Notes: a model not told the origin generated them from the letters alone. Counted from the first letter of the stretch, positions 26,641-40,397 are shown. The stretch is DNA of 46,106 nt from Lachnospiraceae bacterium (GCA_017889125.1 JAGHER010000054.1:1-46106), one strand, 5' to 3'. A program made the numbers and translations.

Positions 26641-26658
26641 CTTGCTGTAAAAGAAAAG

Positions 26659-26730
26659 AGCGCGAGACGGGATTCGAACCCGCGGCCCCCACCTTGGCAA
26701 GGTGGTGCTCCACCCCTGAGCCACTCGCGC
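26659..26730 (-). tRNA. tRNA-Gly (anticodon GCC)
   Basis: GCGCGAGTGGCTCAGGGGTGGAGCACCACCTTGCCAAGGTGGGGGCCGCGGGTTCGAATCCCGTCTCGCGCT. Confidence 0.93.
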
Positions 26731-26753
26731 ATAATTAAAAGTATTCACTTTTA

Positions 26754-26824
26754 AGCGGGTGATGGGAATCGAACCCACGTATCTAGCTTGGAAGGCTAGT
26801 GTTCTACCATTGAACTACACCCGC
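26754..26824 (-). tRNA. tRNA-Gly (anticodon TCC)
   Basis: GCGGGTGTAGTTCAATGGTAGAACACTAGCCTTCCAAGCTAGATACGTGGGTTCGATTCCCATCACCCGCT. Confidence 0.93.
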
Positions 26825-26863
26825 AAGTATGTTCAATCATATTCAGCATAATGAAGAACATAA

Positions 26864-26936
<73 letters not shown>

Positions 26937-27602: not shown

Positions 27603-29204
27603 ATGTCAATGATTCAGGTGAGGAATTTAACCTTTTCCTATGAAGGAAGCCCGGAGCCGGTTTTTGAAAATGTGTCATTTTGCATTGATACAGATTGGAA
27701 GCTGGGATTTACCGGGCGGAACGGACGGGGGAAGACCACCTTTTTGAAGCTTTTGATGAAGGAGTATGAATATAGCGGGAGCATTCAGACGGATGCGGTG
27801 TTTGATTATTTTCCTTTTTCTCCGGAAAATGAGGAGCAGGATACGATTCTGGTGGCGGGGGAGGTGTGCCCGGATTACGATTACTGGCGGCTGGTAAAGG
27901 AGCTTTCCCGGCTTAAGGTGGAGGAAGAGGTGCTTTTTAGGCCCTTTAACACCCTGTCTCAGGGGGAGCGGACGAAGATTCTGCTGGCGCTGCTTTTTTT
28001 GAAGGAGGAGCATTTTCTGCTGATTGACGAGCCCACCAATCATTTAGACCAGGAGGGACGGGAAGTGATGGCGGAGTATCTGAGCAGGAAGCGGGGATTT
28101 ATCCTGGTTTCCCATGACCGGGCATTTCTTGACCGGGCAGTGGATCACATGCTGGTGATTAACAAAAATTCCATTCAGGTGCAGAAGGGAAATTTTTCTT
28201 CCTGGTACAGTAATAAGCAGAAGCAGGATGCATTTGAGGAAGGGGAAAATGAAAAGCGCAGAAAGGAAATCCGGCGGCTTTCAGCGGCGGCCGAGCGGAC
28301 GGAGCGCTGGGCAAATCAGGCGGAGAGCCTGAAGCTGGGAAAGAAGGGCGCAGCGGTCTTTGGCATTGACCGGCCCAACCGGGATTACCTGGGAGAGAAA
28401 TCCCGGAAAATGCAGCAGCGGCGGAAGAATCTGGAAAAGCGCAGGGAGGCGGCTGTCCAGGAAAAGAAGGAGCTGCTTCACGATGTGGAGTCTGCGGAGG
28501 AGATTAAGCTGTTTCCTGGGGTCTGGAGGCAGGAGCGGCTGATCTGGATGCGGGAGGGACGGATCGCGTACGGAGAGCGGACGATTCTTTCCAATGTCAA
28601 TCTGGAAATCCGGCGGGGGGAGCGGCTGGTGCTTCAGGGGTCGAATGGCTGCGGAAAGTCCAGTATATTGAAGGCGATTTTGCAGATAGCCGGAGCTGGC
28701 GGAACGGAGAGTGCCGGGAGCGGGGCAGAGTCTTGCGGGGCTTTCGGGCATCTTCGGTATGAGGGCGAGATGTATCTGGGGGCAGGGATGGAGATTTCCT
28801 ATGTGTCACAGGATACCTCGGGGCTCTCGGGAAGTCTTTCGGATTATGCGGTTCGGGAGGGTGTGGAGGAGAGCTTGCTGAAAAGCCTTCTGCGGAAGCT
28901 GGACTTTTCCAGAGAGCAGCTTTCCCGGCCCATGGAAACCTTCAGCCAGGGGCAGAAGAAAAAGGTGCTTCTGGCAGCCAGCCTTTGCCGGCAGGCCCAT
29001 CTGTATCTGTGGGATGAACCGCTGAATTATATCGACGTGTTTTCTCGAATGCAGATTGAGGCGCTGATTGCGCGGTTCCAGCCCACAATGGTGCTGATTG
29101 AGCATGACCGGGCCTTTACGGAAAAGGTGGGGAGCCGGTTTATCCAGGTGAGGGATTTTTTCGCAAGTGCAGATGAAAGGGTTTCTTTAGGGAAACGCAG
29201 ATGA
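27603..29204 (+). CDS. ABC-F type ATPase, Lsa-like putative ribosomal protection protein
   Basis: Two ABC domains, no TM: GRNGRGKTTFLKLL, LSQGERTKILLALLFLKEEHFLLIDEPTNHLD; GSNGCGKSSILKAIL, FSQGQKKKVLLAASLCRQAHLYLWDEPLNYIDVFSRMQIE. Confidence 0.85.
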   Translation: MSMIQVRNLTFSYEGSPEPVFENVSFCIDTDWKLGFTGRNGRGKTTFLKLLMKEYEYSGSIQTDAVFDYFPFSPENEEQDTILVAGEVCPDYDYWRLVKELSRLKVEEEVLFRPFNTLSQGERTKILLALLFLKEEHFLLIDEPTNHLDQEGREVMAEYLSRKRGFILVSHDRAFLDRAVDHMLVINKNSIQVQKGNFSSWYSNKQKQDAFEEGENEKRRKEIRRLSAAAERTERWANQAESLKLGKKGAAVFGIDRPNRDYLGEKSRKMQQRRKNLEKRREAAVQEKKELLHDVESAEEIKLFPGVWRQERLIWMREGRIAYGERTILSNVNLEIRRGERLVLQGSNGCGKSSILKAILQIAGAGGTESAGSGAESCGAFGHLRYEGEMYLGAGMEISYVSQDTSGLSGSLSDYAVREGVEESLLKSLLRKLDFSREQLSRPMETFSQGQKKKVLLAASLCRQAHLYLWDEPLNYIDVFSRMQIEALIARFQPTMVLIEHDRAFTEKVGSRFIQVRDFFASADERVSLGKRR

Positions 29205-29314
29205 AAGCGTTTCCCGTGCCGGATTTGCGCTGCGAAGCAGCAATTTCCCTTGCAAATCCGTGCACATCCACCGGAGGTTCTAAGGAAACGTTTGTTTAAT
29301 CAGCGTTTCCTTAG
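29190..29314. repeat. Cluster of three inverted repeats plus a 17-bp direct repeat
   Basis: GGGAAACGC/GCGTTTCCC; GGATTTGC/GCAAATCC enclosing GCTGCgaaGCAGC; CTAAGGAAACG/CGTTTCCTTAG; direct repeat GCAGATGAAAGsGTTTC at 29169 and 29197. Confidence 0.8.
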
Positions 29315-29319
29315 AAACG

Positions 29320-29348
29320 TTGTAATTATCTGGGAAACATTGTATACT
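29320..29348 (+). promoter_or_regulatory. Promoter upstream of the large surface protein
   Basis: TTGTAA - 17 nt - TATACT. Confidence 0.4.
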
Positions 29349-29464: not shown

Positions 29465-32400
29465 ATGGGGAGGAAGAGAAAGACTGCAGCAGGGCTCTGC
29501 GTATTGATGTTTATGCAGGCGCTGGTTCCCGGGGAAACGGCCTGGGCCGGGAATACGGGGAAGATGCTGGCTGCGGAGGAATCCGCAGAGACGGCAGAGG
29601 AATCGGGGAAAGCTGCGCAGAAATCTGAGAAGGCCACAGAGGAATCTGCGGAGACAACAAAAGAAAAGAGAAAAAGCAGCGGCCAGGAGACGGAGAGTGC
29701 CAGCCAGAAAATAGCGGAGAAAGAAACAGCGGAAGCAGAAACCGCGGAACCAGAAACAACGGAGCCAGGGACAACGGAGCCAGAGATAACGGAACCAGAA
29801 ACAACGGAACCAGAAACGGCTGAACAGGAAATGGCTGAACCGGAGACTGACGAACCGGAAACTACCCAGCCGGAGACCACGGAGAAGGGGAATGCGAGAC
29901 GGCAGGAGAAGCCGGAGGAGGAGACGCAGGAGCCGGAATCCAGGGCGGCTAAGACGGAGACTGGTGCGGAGAAAAAGGATCTGGAAGAGAAGGAGACTTC
30001 TCTGGGGATTGAAGTGACTGCCGATGCGGAGCGGGCCCGGGTATTTTGCCAGCTTTCCGTTCAGGCGCCAGAGGAGGCTTACCTTCAGCTTACCATTCCG
30101 CAGATGTTTGCCGTGGAGGAGATTTCCCGGGAGGATGAGGACGGAAGGAAAACCGTGCTGACGGAAGGTGAGGACTGGGAAGTTAAGGACGGAGAGGTGC
30201 TTTGCCGCTTAGAAAAGCAGGGCGGGGAAATGCTGTACGAGATTTCCATGGGCCTTAATGGGGAGGCCATGAAGAACTATATGGAAAGCGGCGAGGCGCT
30301 GGAGGCAGAGTTTTCAGGTGCAGTGTCCCTACTGGATCAGAAGGATAAGGTTCTGGCAGAGAAGGATTTTCCGAAGGAAACGCTAAGCCTGAGGCCGTTT
30401 CTTGAAAAGGAGGCCCAGGGCCAGGGACGCGCACAGAAGACCTTTGCCTGGACGGACTGGGTGAATCTGGGGGCAAATCCTGGGAAGGGCTATCTGGCGG
30501 CAGTGATTGAGGATCTGGAGGGCGGCCACCATTTTGACTTTGAAAACGGATGTGTGATGCTGCTGGACTCCCAGGGGGAGGTAAAGGAAGAAATCCCGGT
30601 AACCAAGGTGCAGCCGGACCGGTCTGGGGCTTTTGGGGAAATCTTTACGGCGGAGGATGCCAGAGAGCTTTTGGGCGGCATTTCCGGCGCTGGTTTTTAT
30701 TCTTATGAGGATGATGAGGAGCAGCAGAATGGGATTCTCATTGTGCCGGTAGAGGCGCAGGCGGAGCTGACGGGGATTTCTTACCGGACCAGAGTATCTG
30801 CTGCAGAGGAGCCGGGGATTTATCAGTGGAGTGCGGCGCTGGAGAGCGGCAGCAAGTTTTTATGGGAACAGGCTGAGCCTGTTCCGGAGGAGGAGACAAA
30901 ATACGAAGCTGGGAAGGATTATGAAGCCGGACGGGATTATGAAGCTGGACGGGATGGGGCCGGGAAAAATGAGGATGAAGCATCTGCAGAAGCTGGAGCA
31001 GAGGATATGGATGTAAGCAAGCTTCTTCATCCGGTGTGGGAGATCCGCGCAGCGCGGATTTCTGCAGACAAGGAGCCTGGGGAGAAGGCGCAGACCTTTG
31101 CGGCTAAGAGCATCTGGCTGTCCAAGGAGGCCTCCTGCAGCTTAGTGAGCCAGCAGCCGGGCGAGGATGGGTACAGTCTGGAGACGGGAACAGCCGTCTG
31201 GGATTTCCTGGTGAATCAGAATGGAGAGGATGTAAAGGAAGCGGTGATTACCCGGGAGCTTCGCGGCAGTGAGCAGAGCTTTTCCGGAGCCATCTCCGAT
31301 GGGAAGGAAATTACGGCGGTGCTCTGCCGGGGAGATGCGTCATGGGAGGATGAAACGGAGGAGGCTGTGATCCTTCCTTATGAGGAATGGGAGGAAATGC
31401 AGGAATCAGAAGAGGCATCTTCGGATTTTTATGGTTATTATGTGCTGGATCAGCAGGAGGAAACAGAGCGGCTGGAGATCCATCTGTTTCAGCTGGGCCA
31501 GGCGGCGTGCCGGTTTTCCGTGGAGACGAAGGTGAAGGACGGAGCCTTTGCTGCGTGGAGTGAGGAATTTTCCATTTCCTCTGGGGATACGGCGTATACG
31601 GCGGTGCTGGAGAACCGTGATGGGCAGGTGCAGCAGACGGAAGGCGAATGCGGCACGGAAATCCCTGCAGAGAATGCCTGGCTTCTTTTGGAGGCCGCCG
31701 AGGGGTATGATTATGCTGACCACAGTCTGGAGCTGGAGATGACGGTGAATCCGGATGGGCGCAGTCTGACGGATCCGGAGGTCATGGTGACCTTGTCGGA
31801 TGGCCTGGAGCAGGTGGAGATCCGACAGGTGACGGCCTGGGAGAAGGATGGACGGCAGGAGGATATTACAGAGGAAGAATGGATTTGGGCAGAGGAAGAG
31901 GCGCCGGATGAGCGGACTGGCGAGAGCCATGTGCTCTTTTCCTGGCGGGAAGCCAAAGAGGATGAGGAAAGGCCCTCGGAGAATACCACATACCGGATTC
32001 GTTTCCGCTGCAGGATGTCAGAGGATATGCGCAATGAAAGCTTCCTTTCCGGCGATGAGGAGGTGCTTTTTGCCAGTGCCCAGCTGACGGGCAATGCGGG
32101 AGCTTCCGGTGAGGAGGAGGCCATTGCCGGGGCGGAGGCTAAGGTGTCCATAGAATGGAATTCTGCCGCGGCCGCAGGCGAGGGCTACTATCTGGAAAAC
32201 CGCTACAGTCAGGAGAATTCCCGCTGGGATGGAACACGGATGCCAAGGGCAGAGTGGAGGGTGGTGATTAACCGCAATGAAGGCGATCTGACTGGTGCAC
32301 GGTTTGTGCTGGAATGGCCGGATTCCCTTCAGGCAGATCCCGCATCCCTTCGCATTTATATGGCACAGCTGGATGAGACGGGCGGGCTTGGCAGTGAACG

Positions 32401-34690
32401 TCAGCAGATCTGGCCTTACGAGGATGCGGAGGATGAAGAAGAGGCCCGCAGCCTTCTGCCGGAGGATCAGGTAAAGGCGGAGGCGGATGAACTGGAAATT
32501 ATCCTGCCGGACAGCCTTGCCGGACGGACGCTCTGCGTGGAGCTTACTACCTTTGTCCAGGCGGATATGGAGGAGTCGGATTTTGCTGCTGTATATCGGC
32601 TGGAGCGGGATGCGGACACGTTAGAATCAGGAGAATTCAGCGTAAACGGGGCAAGAGCGGTGTCTATTCTGGAGGCCGCAGAGAAAAACAGGATCCCCTC
32701 GGCGGCGGTGATGCTGACCAGTGCAAATTCAGACAGCGGACAGCCCTACGGCCTGTCTGGCGCAGTGTACCGGCTGACCAGGATGGAAGCGATCGATGAG
32801 GATGGCCAGTGGGATTCCTTCGAAGAGGCAGATGCAGGAAAGGATGAAAGCGGGGCAGTGATGACTGCGGCTGCGGAGGATGGCGGTCAGGCGGCATTCC
32901 TCTTCCTTGAGGAGGACACCCTTTACAAGCTGGAGGAGATCCAGCCGGCAGAAGGGTATGAGCCCTGGGAGGAGGCCAGATATCTGGTTCTTCTGGATAA
33001 GCTTACGGAAAGCGATTTCCCGCAGGAGGATGAGGAGCATAAACTGTACGCCGGAGAGACCCAGGTGCGGATTCGGGAGGAGAAGAGCCTGGACAGGTGG
33101 AAGTCCGGCGAAGAAACGGTCAGAGGCGGCCGGCTGGAATTTTACGTGGAGGATCAGGAAGGAAATCCTCTGGAAAACGTAAGCTGCAGCCTGACCTATG
33201 CTGCTTATGAGCAGGAAAAGACGGGAAGGCTTAAGTCAAGACAGGCGACCAGCGATAAAGACGGCCTGGTAGTATTTGACGGGCTGGATCCTCTGATGGA
33301 GGGCAAGGAGGGTTATGAGATTCATGTGACGGCGCCTTACGGCATGGAAGACCCGGCGGAATTTTCAGCCGGGACAGCTGTTGAGGAGGACGGAAGCTTC
33401 CGTACCTGGGTAGAGGGCAAGGCAGCCCGGCAGGAGGAGGACGGGATTTATGTAACCTGTCTTCCGGCATCTGCAGATGTACGGATCCCGGTTACGGATC
33501 AGAATGGAAATCTTCTTGCTGGCTGCGGCCTGGAGCTGCAGGTGGAGCGGCTAGAGGAGCCGGAGGAGGAAGCGGAAAGAGAGAAAGAAAATTCCCAGGA
33601 GGAAACCGCCGCCCGGTTTGCTTCTTACCAGCCCATGCCGTCGGCGGCAGAGGATGGAAGCGGCTGCATTACGCTGACGGATCTTCCCTACGGAACCTAC
33701 CGCGTGTTCGGGGGCCGGTCGATTATGACGCTGATTCTGGATGAGGATGGAGTAGAAGGCTGGCTTGAGCCGGTGGAGGCGGAGAGTGAGCGGGGGGACC
33801 GAAAGACAGTACGCCTTGAGCTTGAACCGGATGAGCATGGAGTTTACACAGCTGCAGAGGAAGACGGCTGGTATATGGAAGAATTCCTTCCGAGAAGGCC
33901 GGCGAGCTTCCGGCTAAGAGAAAGCGGTCTGGAGGATTCTGCCGTATCTGGAAGCCGCTTCCTGGTATATGAGACCTGGAGCGACCGTCTGGTTGGCGAA
34001 TTAAAGGAAAGCAGCCAGGAGGCGGGACTTTACCAGCTGACGGCCTCAGAGCGGCCGGAGGCTGTCCTGATCAATGACCGGGGACTTTCCTACATTGAGG
34101 ACGGAAAAGTTCTGCCGGGAACCTACGCTGTGTGGGAGATTCAGGCGGCGGAGGGCTTCAGCCCGGATGGCAGCGGCGTCTGGTATTTTCAGTCTGGCGG
34201 AGAAGAAGGCCCCATTGGAAATGAAGCGCTGATCGATGGCGGCGGGCAGGAAAAGCCTTTTGAAAATTCGGTTATCCGCTGCCAGGTGCCTTTCCTTCTG
34301 ACTCCGGAAATGGAGGAGCCAGAGGATAACGGGCAGGAGAAGCCGGAGAATGGAGAACAGGCATCTGCCAGACAGGAAAATGCGGCAGAGGAAAAGTCTG
34401 CCAAAGCAGGATCTCTGACAGTAACCCTTCGCGGAACGGCATGGGGAAGCGGAAATGCTGCCGGTGATTATGAGGCAGAGTTAACGTGCGCAGTCGGCGA
34501 AAGCCTGAGGGAAGCCTTTGACCAGGTCCCCGTGGGAATTTACATTCTGCGCATAGATCCGGATTCCATGGAGAACCTGACGGCTTCGCCTGGCATCCAG
34601 GTGCAGGTGCAGTATGACGGCCAGGTGATTTTCCGCACCATCGGCGGCCGCCTCCTGGAGGAAGGCGAGCTGACTTATGGGCTGCGGTAG
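29465..34690 (+). CDS. Large secreted SpaA-like (prealbumin-fold) surface protein, 1741 aa
   Basis: Signal peptide MGRKRKTAAGLCVLMFMQALVPGETAWAG; T/E/P-rich stalk; SpaA-type segments (YGLSGAVYRLTRMEA...LYKLEEIQPAEGYEPW; AVSGSRFLVYETW...VWEIQAAEGFSPDG); no LPXTG or C-terminal TM. Confidence 0.75.
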   Translation: MGRKRKTAAGLCVLMFMQALVPGETAWAGNTGKMLAAEESAETAEESGKAAQKSEKATEESAETTKEKRKSSGQETESASQKIAEKETAEAETAEPETTEPGTTEPEITEPETTEPETAEQEMAEPETDEPETTQPETTEKGNARRQEKPEEETQEPESRAAKTETGAEKKDLEEKETSLGIEVTADAERARVFCQLSVQAPEEAYLQLTIPQMFAVEEISREDEDGRKTVLTEGEDWEVKDGEVLCRLEKQGGEMLYEISMGLNGEAMKNYMESGEALEAEFSGAVSLLDQKDKVLAEKDFPKETLSLRPFLEKEAQGQGRAQKTFAWTDWVNLGANPGKGYLAAVIEDLEGGHHFDFENGCVMLLDSQGEVKEEIPVTKVQPDRSGAFGEIFTAEDARELLGGISGAGFYSYEDDEEQQNGILIVPVEAQAELTGISYRTRVSAAEEPGIYQWSAALESGSKFLWEQAEPVPEEETKYEAGKDYEAGRDYEAGRDGAGKNEDEASAEAGAEDMDVSKLLHPVWEIRAARISADKEPGEKAQTFAAKSIWLSKEASCSLVSQQPGEDGYSLETGTAVWDFLVNQNGEDVKEAVITRELRGSEQSFSGAISDGKEITAVLCRGDASWEDETEEAVILPYEEWEEMQESEEASSDFYGYYVLDQQEETERLEIHLFQLGQAACRFSVETKVKDGAFAAWSEEFSISSGDTAYTAVLENRDGQVQQTEGECGTEIPAENAWLLLEAAEGYDYADHSLELEMTVNPDGRSLTDPEVMVTLSDGLEQVEIRQVTAWEKDGRQEDITEEEWIWAEEEAPDERTGESHVLFSWREAKEDEERPSENTTYRIRFRCRMSEDMRNESFLSGDEEVLFASAQLTGNAGASGEEEAIAGAEAKVSIEWNSAAAAGEGYYLENRYSQENSRWDGTRMPRAEWRVVINRNEGDLTGARFVLEWPDSLQADPASLRIYMAQLDETGGLGSERQQIWPYEDAEDEEEARSLLPEDQVKAEADELEIILPDSLAGRTLCVELTTFVQADMEESDFAAVYRLERDADTLESGEFSVNGARAVSILEAAEKNRIPSAAVMLTSANSDSGQPYGLSGAVYRLTRMEAIDEDGQWDSFEEADAGKDESGAVMTAAAEDGGQAAFLFLEEDTLYKLEEIQPAEGYEPWEEARYLVLLDKLTESDFPQEDEEHKLYAGETQVRIREEKSLDRWKSGEETVRGGRLEFYVEDQEGNPLENVSCSLTYAAYEQEKTGRLKSRQATSDKDGLVVFDGLDPLMEGKEGYEIHVTAPYGMEDPAEFSAGTAVEEDGSFRTWVEGKAARQEEDGIYVTCLPASADVRIPVTDQNGNLLAGCGLELQVERLEEPEEEAEREKENSQEETAARFASYQPMPSAAEDGSGCITLTDLPYGTYRVFGGRSIMTLILDEDGVEGWLEPVEAESERGDRKTVRLELEPDEHGVYTAAEEDGWYMEEFLPRRPASFRLRESGLEDSAVSGSRFLVYETWSDRLVGELKESSQEAGLYQLTASERPEAVLINDRGLSYIEDGKVLPGTYAVWEIQAAEGFSPDGSGVWYFQSGGEEGPIGNEALIDGGGQEKPFENSVIRCQVPFLLTPEMEEPEDNGQEKPENGEQASARQENAAEEKSAKAGSLTVTLRGTAWGSGNAAGDYEAELTCAVGESLREAFDQVPVGIYILRIDPDSMENLTASPGIQVQVQYDGQVIFRTIGGRLLEEGELTYGLR

Positions 34691-34751
34691 ATTTAAGAAA
34701 GAGCTGATCGGCGCTTCTGTGCCGGAACCGGAGGACAACAGAGAGGAGTAG

Positions 34752-35600
34752 ATGATGAAAAAGGGCAGGAAGAGGCTGTACGATGTGCTGTTTGCATTGT
34801 GCATCCTGGTATTTGTGGGAAGCGGCTGTATGCTGATTCAAAAGATTGCCGCGCAGAAGAAGAATGACGGACGGCTGGAGGATTTGTCCAGTCTGGTAAC
34901 GGCGCAGCTGGAGACGGAGGCCCAGACTGCGGCGGATGAGGAGGATAAAGAGGAGGAGATACAGGAGAAGACCCTGACGCCCGAAGAGATTCGGGCGGCC
35001 AGGCTGGCCCGGCTGGAAGCATACCAGAAGGTTAAAGAGCTGAATGAGGATATGGTAGGCTGGGTAAAGGTGGAGGGCACGAAGATTGATTACCCGGTGC
35101 TTCAGAGCCTGTACAGTCCGAACTTTTATCTGACCCATGATTTTGACAAGAAAAAAAGTGTCTACGGGGCTCCCTACGTGGCAGAGGAGTGCGATCTGAC
35201 TCAGGATTGTCCCAACATTCTGGTATATGGGCATCACATGAAGAATGGAAGCATGTTTGCTGCCCTGGACGGGTATCTGGATAAGCGCTTTTACGAGGAG
35301 CATCCGATTGTCCAGTTTGACACCATGGATTCTTACGGAGATTATCAGGTAATGGCTGTATTTTCCATGAGTGCGGTAGATCAGAACAATCCCCTTTACA
35401 GCTGGATTTCTGCAGGGAATGAGGAGGCCTTTAACAATTATGTTTCTTATGTAAAGGCCCAGTCGGTCTATGATACCGGGGTGGATGCCCAGTGGGGAGA
35501 TCATCTCCTGAGCCTGATTACCTGTGAATATACCCACCAGGACGGCCGACTGATTGTGGTGGCAAAGAAGCTGGAGGAAATGGAGACAGCTGAAAAATAA
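34752..35600 (+). CDS. srtB: Class B sortase
   Basis: N-terminal TM; DMVGWVKVEGTKIDYPVLQ; NILVYGHHMKNGSMFAAL; LSLITCEYTHQDGRLIVVAKK catalytic Cys. Confidence 0.92.
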   Translation: MMKKGRKRLYDVLFALCILVFVGSGCMLIQKIAAQKKNDGRLEDLSSLVTAQLETEAQTAADEEDKEEEIQEKTLTPEEIRAARLARLEAYQKVKELNEDMVGWVKVEGTKIDYPVLQSLYSPNFYLTHDFDKKKSVYGAPYVAEECDLTQDCPNILVYGHHMKNGSMFAALDGYLDKRFYEEHPIVQFDTMDSYGDYQVMAVFSMSAVDQNNPLYSWISAGNEEAFNNYVSYVKAQSVYDTGVDAQWGDHLLSLITCEYTHQDGRLIVVAKKLEEMETAEK

Positions 35601-35673: not shown

Positions 35674-35703
35674 TGGACAAGGAGTTAAAAAAATGTTTAT
35701 AAT
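35674..35703 (+). promoter_or_regulatory. Promoter for the atp operon
   Basis: TGGACA - 18 nt - TATAAT. Confidence 0.5.
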
Positions 35704-36665: not shown

Positions 36666-37690
<1,025 letters not shown>

Positions 37691-37809
37691 TTTCTTTCCT
37701 TAGCGAAGGATGCAGAGACAAAAATCTGCGGGCCGCGCGCGGTTTGCTGCCCTGATGAACGGGGCGGCGGCTTGATTGTGTGTGCCAAAGCAGGAAAGGA
37801 GGGAAGGCC

Positions 37810-38334
37810 TTGGAGGAATTTTTAAGAATTATCGGCTTCGACTGGCAGCTGATTCATGACGCGGTGCTGATGGGAATCAATATTTTCATCCTGTTCTTTT
37901 TCCTGTCTTATTTTCTCTTTAATCCCGTGCAGGATTTCCTGGAGAAAAGACGGCAGAGAATCGCGGGACAGCTGGCTGAGGCGGCGGATAACCAGAAGGC
38001 GGCCAAAGCGCTTAAGGAAGAGTACGAGAACCGCTTGAAGGAGATCCAGACGGAGGCCGACGGAATCCTGGCGGATGCCAGGAGGAAGGCGAAGATTAAG
38101 GAGGCGGACATTCTGGCGGAGGCCAGAAACGAGGCAGCCAGAATCGTGGAGCGGGCAAACCGCCAGGCAGAGTTAGAGCGCCAGAAGGCCCGGGATGAGA
38201 TGAAGCGGGAGATGATCTCCGTTGCCTCTCTGATGGCCGGAAAGCTGGTGACGGCTTCCATCGATCCGGCTATGCAGGACCGTCTGTTTGACGAGACGCT
38301 GAAGGAAATAGGTGAGAATACATGGCTACAGTGA
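37810..38334 (+). CDS. atpF: F0F1 ATP synthase subunit b (likely TTG start)
   Basis: TM then long charged helix; SD AAGGAGGGA before TTG 37810 (ORF track opens at 37780). Confidence 0.9.
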   Translation: MEEFLRIIGFDWQLIHDAVLMGINIFILFFFLSYFLFNPVQDFLEKRRQRIAGQLAEAADNQKAAKALKEEYENRLKEIQTEADGILADARRKAKIKEADILAEARNEAARIVERANRQAELERQKARDEMKREMISVASLMAGKLVTASIDPAMQDRLFDETLKEIGENTWLQ

Positions 38335-38867
38335 CCAAGGTATATGGGGATGCCCTGATGGCGGCGGCTTTGGAGGGAAATGAGACGGACCGCCTTTACG
38401 AAGAGGCCCGGGCCTTGCAGGAGATCTGGCGGGAGAACCCGGAGCTGTCTGCGTTTCTGGAGAATCCCAATGTGGCCGACGGAGAAAAGCTGTCGGTGTT
38501 AAAGGCGGTTTTTGCTGAGCGGGTTTCTCCGGATATGATGGGATTTCTCATTACCGTCCAGGAGAAGGGACGGCAGAAGGAAATTCCGCAGATCCTGGAT
38601 GCCTTTATCCATCAGGTCATGGAATATAAGAAAATCGGAACCGCATGGGTGACCAGCGCTGTCAGCCTGACTGAAGAGCAGAAGGCTCAGGTTCGGGATA
38701 AGCTTTTAGCGACCACATCCTATGTGGAATTTGAGATGCATTTTGCCGTAGATCCCTCGCTGATTGGCGGCATGGTGCTCCGCATCGGAGACCGGGTGGT
38801 GGATTCCAGTATCCGGACCCGGTTACACCGGCTGGAGAAGGAGCTTTTGGGCCTCCAGCTTGATTAA
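38322..38867 (+). CDS. atpH: F0F1 ATP synthase subunit delta
   Basis: YGDALMAAALE...MMGFLITVQEKGRQKEIPQILDAF...LIGGMVLRIGDRVVDSSIRTRL. Confidence 0.93.
   Translation: MATVTKVYGDALMAAALEGNETDRLYEEARALQEIWRENPELSAFLENPNVADGEKLSVLKAVFAERVSPDMMGFLITVQEKGRQKEIPQILDAFIHQVMEYKKIGTAWVTSAVSLTEEQKAQVRDKLLATTSYVEFEMHFAVDPSLIGGMVLRIGDRVVDSSIRTRLHRLEKELLGLQLD

Positions 38868-40397
<1,530 letters not shown>

Follow-up and report, generated by a model that had tools for sequence, protein, structure and literature searches.

Results

A giant adhesin-like gene lies directly upstream of a class B sortase gene

The window analysed here, a stretch of 46,106 nucleotides, comes from an uncultured chicken-gut lineage of Clostridia/Lachnospiraceae. 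On its plus strand an open reading frame at positions 29465-34690 encodes an adhesin-like protein of 1741 amino acids (the giant protein hereafter), which has a pI of about 4.2, lacks a sorting signal and is probably secreted. Only 61 bp separate its stop codon from the start of srtB (34752-35600, plus strand), which encodes a class B sortase of 282 amino acids and is followed by the ATP-synthase operon. The TIGR03064 class B model scores 156 bits on the SrtB product against a cut-off of 153.75, a narrow pass, and the best matches in the PDB are solved SrtB structures. Cys258, Arg266 and the histidine of YGHHMKNG are invariant across ten orthologues, and from its sequence SrtB is assessed as a catalytically complete class B sortase. 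A literature search found nothing directly on class B sortases in Lachnospiraceae.

Upstream, a cluster of tRNA-Gly(gcc), tRNA-Gly(tcc) and tRNA-Phe genes (26658..26936, minus strand; ARAGORN and Rfam) marks the edge of an accessory block. Between this cluster and the giant gene lies a gene for an ABC-F ribosomal-protection-like protein (27603..29204, plus strand; NCBIfam NF000355, score 432.7 bits, cut-off 380), which is also found upstream of the giant gene in G006, Candidatus Caccovicinus merdipullorum. The ABC-F gene belongs to the tRNA-to-srtB block and is not thought to be part of the mechanism discussed below. Its product is also close to the Lsa family, yet under that family's cut-off (632 versus 750 bits).

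Scanning for promoter consensus sequences gave a weak site before the giant gene (TTGTAA-17-TATACT, 9/12; 29320..29348, plus strand) and a strong one before the ATP-synthase operon (TGGACA-18-TATAAT; 35674..35703, plus strand). Between the giant gene and srtB the same scan found no promoter-like site except a weak match within the giant coding sequence. The strong site points to separate initiation of the atp operon and to a transcription unit of the giant gene and srtB apart from it, and from the distribution of these promoter-like sites the two genes are probably co-transcribed. The intergenic region before the giant gene (29200-29320) folds far better than its shuffles (z -3.6) and contains a perfect 13-bp inverted repeat, TTCTAAGGAAACG/CGTTTCCTTAGAA; it has no match in Rfam.

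The giant protein has a low-complexity stretch at its N-terminus

By inspection the giant protein begins with a signal peptide (amino acids 1-28, MGRKRKTAAGLCVLMFMQALVPGETAWA; 29465..29548, plus strand) made up of a basic region, a hydrophobic region and an AxA site, an arrangement that is conserved in all four orthologues identified in the genus. Low-complexity sequence covers about 140 amino acids at the N-terminal end, varies in length among the orthologues and contains a T/E/P-rich repeat built on a 15-bp tandem unit (29709..29841, plus strand). The usual place of such a stretch is just before a C-terminal sorting signal. The T/E/P stalk that the first-pass annotation described is thus present, but at the N-terminal end of the protein and not ahead of a C-terminal signal. 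Overall composition is extremely acidic (pI 4.2, 22% D+E).

This arrangement raises the possibility that the hydrophobic segment is not cleaved and serves as a membrane anchor, with the T/E/P stretch crossing the wall and the C-terminus forming the tip, so that no sortase would be needed. The N-terminal position of the spacer-like stretch fits such a topology, as does the observation that in an ordinary signal-bearing protein of this genome the P/T stalk closely precedes LPKTG. The hydrophobic core is, however, short (19-residue Kyte-Doolittle mean 1.37-1.68), AxA sites follow it in at least three of the four orthologues, as in cleaved signal peptides, and acidic or T-rich N-termini are also found in some Lachnospiraceae homologues that do bear a sorting signal. 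We regard anchoring through the N-terminus as improbable.

Eight cysteines of the giant protein (amino acids 558, 682, 729, 849, 1241, 1332, 1354 and 1675) are all kept in the four orthologues. None of them falls in the signal peptide, and their number is unusual among exported surface proteins of Gram-positive bacteria.

The predicted domains resemble those of sortase-anchored adhesins and pilins

Amino acids 170-1085 (29972..32719, plus strand) are predicted to form a string of beta-sandwich domains resembling the collagen/fibrinogen-binding domains of MSCRAMMs, on the basis of weak matches to PF05737 and a low-confidence model. The PF05737 matches fall below the curated cut-off and are seen in two of the four orthologues, and they rise above it in distant homologues. 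The following segment (amino acids 1085-1345; 32717..33499, plus strand) consists of SpaA/CnaB-type prealbumin domains that lack the isopeptide lysine; Pfam SpaA (PF17802) matches the giant protein in two stretches with an E-value of 1.7e-12, above its 23.1-bit cut-off, and the best stretch is at amino acids 1092-1169. From amino acid 1345 to 1741 (33497..34687, plus strand) alignment and a low-confidence model point to further CnaB-like domains, the last of which reaches the C-terminus (IQVQVQYDGQVIFRTIGGR...).

A search of PDB sequences with the giant protein gave no significant match. AlphaFold models of its two halves were poor, with mean pLDDT values of 55 (N-terminal) and 45 (C-terminal), and for this reason the structural matches are only suggestive: Foldseek related the model of the N-terminal half to the PrgB Ig-like domains, CppB, Cnm, SdrE and ClfB, and that of the C-terminal half to CnaB pilin domains. 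The predicted beta-sandwich domains are the point of likeness to MSCRAMMs (Cna, Cnm, SdrE, ClfB) and to CnaB pilins (BcpA, RrgB). Those proteins are anchored by sortases and are often bonded internally by isopeptides. In contrast, the giant protein has neither a sorting signal nor isopeptide lysines in its CnaB-like domains: across five such domains, with approximate boundaries, no first-strand lysine is conserved among the four orthologues, with isolated Lys in G007 as the exception.

No sorting signal is found in the giant protein or at its junction with srtB

The giant protein ends ...RLLEEGELTYGLR. No LPxTG, NPxTN or SPxTG-like motif was found when the C-termini of the giant protein and its three orthologues were scanned, and none of the four has a hydrophobic segment in the last 110 amino acids or a basic tail. 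A search of the giant-srtB junction in all frames of the four genomes likewise found no sorting signal. Of the features of a sortase-anchored protein, then, the signal peptide is present by inspection while the C-terminal motif, hydrophobic stretch and basic tail are absent from all four. These results bear out the earlier description of a 1741-amino-acid protein without a recognisable sorting signal next to srtB.

Might SrtB instead read a non-classical signal in the giant C-terminus, for example around VIFRTIGGR, and anchor the protein without the help of a membrane helix? There is a precedent in AbpA of oral streptococci, an adhesin without a transmembrane helix whose gene lies beside that of a class B sortase; its LPKTS motif is followed only by AVK, and it is cleaved and anchored by the adjacent SrtB (PMC4974636). 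The strong conservation of the C-terminal segment IQVQVQYDG..FRTI.GR could be read in the same way. However, the L and P of LPKTS are essential for the anchoring of AbpA (PMC4974636), whereas the giant protein has no LPxT at its end and no motif like the LPKTS-AVK tail. The conserved segment is predicted, at low confidence, to form strands of the last domain. SrtB itself scores 45 bits on the AbpA-type model NF040525, far below the cut-off of 200, and the sortases of carrier genomes have no special residues: three alignment columns are carrier-specific, which is no excess over other partitions of the same genomes. We consider a cryptic signal very unlikely, and the suggestion of the first-pass annotation that the sortase uses a different motif did not find support.

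The giant gene is accessory and srtB is core

The genus comparison covered 11 MAG-like draft genomes, of which G000 is the source of the window. Orthologues of the giant protein are encoded in four: G000, G006, G004 (Candidatus Cottocaccamicrobium excrementipullorum) and G007. Identity to the G000 copy is 66% for G006, 52% for G004 and 45-52% for G007 in the main search rows; a search of GTDB contigs with a three-sequence alignment found only G006 and G004. The giant gene always lies directly upstream of srtB, with gaps of about 18-70 bp, so that the co-occurrence in relatives that had been proposed as a check is seen in every carrier. The four proteins stop within a few residues of each other, with IQVQVQYDG[QE]V[IV]FRTI[GS]GR followed by about 15 amino acids. 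Where it could be measured, dN/dS is low: between G000 and G006 it is 0.13 overall and 0.14 in the last domain, and between G000 and G007 it is 0.23; in both comparisons dS is near saturation. The shared end and the low dN/dS argue that the signal-less form is an old state maintained by purifying selection and not a broken copy.

A frameshift or truncation concealing a signal was considered and rejected: no frame contains a signal, the gaps measure only 18-70 bp and the same end recurs in the four orthologues. In G007 the giant frame (L057:8737) has an in-frame TAG at codon 1531 of the frame used. The codon falls within low-complexity sequence and the conserved C-terminus follows it intact; this interruption may reflect decay or an assembly error.

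An orthologue of srtB is present in 10 of the 11 genomes and, wherever its surroundings were inspected, immediately precedes the atp operon; it was not found in G009, a genome that is 83% complete. Four genomes (G002, G003, G008 and G010) are clear non-carriers; G001 (contig end), G005, in which a stretch of N lies immediately before srtB, and G009 are not counted among them. In the clear non-carriers srtB stands alone beside tRNA-Gly/Phe genes, and no remnants of the giant gene were found upstream of it. In G002 some 270 bp separate the tRNA-Gly-Gly-Phe cluster from srtB downstream of it, and tRNAs of the cluster are near srtB in G003, G008 and G010. Compared with G002, the locus in the window has a block of ABC-F and giant genes between the tRNA cluster and srtB. 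Since srtB occurs in 10 of 11 genomes and without the giant gene in the four clear non-carriers, gene content indicates that the genus has srtB as a core gene and the giant gene as an accessory block beside it. In the sortase tree the carriers fall in two places, G000/G006/G004 and G007, and their upstream flanks differ.

Downstream of srtB, the ATP-synthase proteins of G004 and G006 (corresponding to 36666-40397 of the window; L051, L052) are strongly diverged and form long branches. Their identities to those of other genus members are 65-68% (G004) and 77-83% (G006), and 67% to each other, against about 83-99% among the other members. From the sequences it is possible that the ATP synthase of these two genomes is under relaxed constraint or has been replaced.

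Distant homologues mostly bear a sorting signal

Profiles built from the giant proteins alone retrieved no orthologue outside the genus among 397 Lachnospiraceae genomes, but the search of these genomes led to two proteins of G311 (L126 and L127), and hhalign of the giant against the G311 proteins indicated homology over the full length (98.9%, E-value 2.8e-17, 924 columns). The paralogue at L127:4160-8668 has 1502 amino acids, no signal, no adjoining sortase and a Cys/Asn-rich tail. The L126 adhesin has 1543 amino acids, lies 3 bp after a class B sortase gene of its own and ends ...NVPKTGDSRYPHVFYGGISLISLAGIIYSLKKIFFSRKNAKLFLK. The L126 pair resembles the one studied here in combining a full-length homologous adhesin with a class B sortase (33% identity); it differs in that the sortase gene comes first and in the C-terminus of the adhesin, which bears a stalk as well as a canonical VPKTGDS-TM-basic tail.

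Once enlarged by the G311 proteins, the profile gave strong matches over several domains in G283, G036, G070, G386, G181 and G081. Five of the six homologues with a readable C-terminus (G036, cut near a contig end, and G386, with a broken frame, are left out of this tally) carry a C-terminal signal, namely VPKTGDS, AKTAD and, in three cases, VKTGD. The Collagen_bind/SpaA surface proteins of G283, G070, G181 and G081 share with the giant protein matches to the profile over several domains; unlike it, they reach up to 3837 amino acids, bear AKTAD or VKTGD signals and have no adjoining sortase. The last 400 amino acids of the giant protein weakly match internal parts of the longer homologues, a tentative result with E-values from a nine-sequence set.

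With signals in most of the distant homologues, the giant protein appears to be a derived, shorter version, and the simplest reading of these sequences is that the family ancestrally bore a signal and that the version in this genus ends early. Orthologues with a C-terminal signal had been named beforehand as the finding that would make the giant protein a simple truncation; within the genus there are none among the four, and it is the distant full-length homologues of other genera that mostly have one. Signal-less partners may recur in the adhesin family, to judge from the L127 paralogue.

Could the giant gene and srtB be neighbours by chance, a block of ABC-F and giant genes having entered the interval from the tRNA cluster to srtB by insertion, or having been lost elsewhere, with no functional relation between the two products? 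The patchy presence of the giant gene is what such a history would leave, and so is the difference between the window, with its extra block, and the non-carriers, with the plain order tRNA-Gly-Gly-Phe, srtB, atp. Yet the adjacency is kept in two lineages with different upstream flanks, and a homologue lies beside a class B sortase gene in another genus. Mere coincidence of position seems to us highly doubtful.

Candidate substrates of SrtB are encoded elsewhere in the genome

Genome-wide lists of signal-bearing proteins were drawn from profile searches, which may miss non-canonical signals. They show that the genome of the window has two pilus-like loci that include sortases of their own (C60 and C192), a second class B sortase gene on contig C4 adjoining that of a 1670-amino-acid VWA-domain protein with a P/T stalk and an ALPKTGEGR signal (L070:3874-9937), and scattered proteins ending ..VPLFALPKTGDD.., ..GLPKTGDN.. 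and ..GIPRTGDS... Searching this genome for NPQTN-type signals (TIGR03063) gave only chance-level matches. Proteins of the form VPL..LPKTGD..TM..RKRK are many and recur across the genus. Among the sortases found in G010 there are only class B enzymes, yet proteins of this genome end in LPKTGDS, LPKTGDT and LPKTADR, which makes it very likely, on sequence evidence, that the class B sortases of the genus process LPKTGD signals of the ordinary kind, complete with membrane helix and tail. Most of these genomes have a second class B sortase, as the genome of the window does on contig C4, and either of the two enzymes may be the one that does the housekeeping work. The most likely role of SrtB is the anchoring of scattered LPKTGD proteins in trans, a pairing of enzyme and substrate that we infer. 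Of the three explanations that the first-pass annotation had offered, a substrate encoded elsewhere is the best supported, given these LPKTGD proteins and the presence of srtB without the giant gene in at least four genomes.

Class B sortase genes of other genera with 43-48% identity (L060, L061, L062 and L064) lie beside genes that seem to belong to conjugative elements; judged by eye, their neighbours include VirB4-like and cell-wall peptidase-like open reading frames.

LPKTGD proteins in trans could also act as donors to the giant protein itself. In that case a lysine or the N-terminus of the giant protein would be linked by SrtB to an LPKTGD protein at its threonine end, as if a pilus subunit were being added, and the giant protein would be exposed by way of this sorted partner. 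The tight and conserved gene pair and the pilin-like CnaB domains would suit an acceptor of this kind, and the class B sortase Spy0129 has been described as able to take part in pilus assembly (PMC3019223). Lysines are few, however: their content is 3.2-6.3% across the orthologues, six are conserved in all four, and none of these six sits in a pilin motif (YPK-type context), so the earlier proposal of a tip or adhesin joined through an internal residue is left unsupported. Pilus subunits, tips included, are described as carrying a sorting signal too (PMC11389406), and the giant protein has none; moreover, srtB exists without it in at least four genomes. An acceptor role strikes us as unlikely.

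Discussion

The giant protein belongs to a known kind of adhesin, of which it is a derived form without a sorting signal, and it is encoded beside a core class B sortase. The account that we think rather more probable than its alternatives taken together is that an adhesin lineage lost its sorting signal and that the giant protein is now co-expressed with a sortase that serves LPKTGD proteins, without being its acyl-donor substrate. According to this model, the giant protein would be exported by Sec and its signal peptide cleaved, and it would fold into an acidic multidomain rod of the collagen-binding/SpaA adhesin type. In this genus it would end at a domain boundary, the signal having been lost and the short form kept by selection. 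Lacking a signal, it cannot serve as acyl donor in the sortase reaction as known; its probable fate would be release into the medium or non-covalent retention at the cell surface, while SrtB, co-expressed with it, would serve LPKTGD proteins in trans.

There is a counterpoint to this account. The family of the giant protein adjoins a class B sortase in another genus too, and the adjacency in four of four carriers, in two lineages and with gaps of 18-70 bp, suggests a tighter link than shared transcription. It is conceivable that, with no signal of its own, the giant protein is attached covalently for display by its class B sortase, whether by accepting the threonine of a sorted partner or by means of a C-terminal signal that has escaped recognition, but we give this little credence, and attachment by an unconventional sortase reaction is unsupported. 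If it were true that the giant protein is linked to the wall, there would be a sortase reaction without a sorting signal and a new kind of sortase substrate. This striking reading is not likely.

The pair formed by the giant gene and srtB resembles an enzyme with its substrate, and comparison across genomes says that it most likely is not. Annotation pipelines that infer sortase substrates by adjacency would err at this locus. For the organisms themselves, the comparison implies that wall anchoring can be lost from large SpaA/collagen-binding adhesins in gut Lachnospiraceae even though their genes stay beside that of a sortase, and that the class B sortases of this genus probably carry out general anchoring of LPKTGD proteins.
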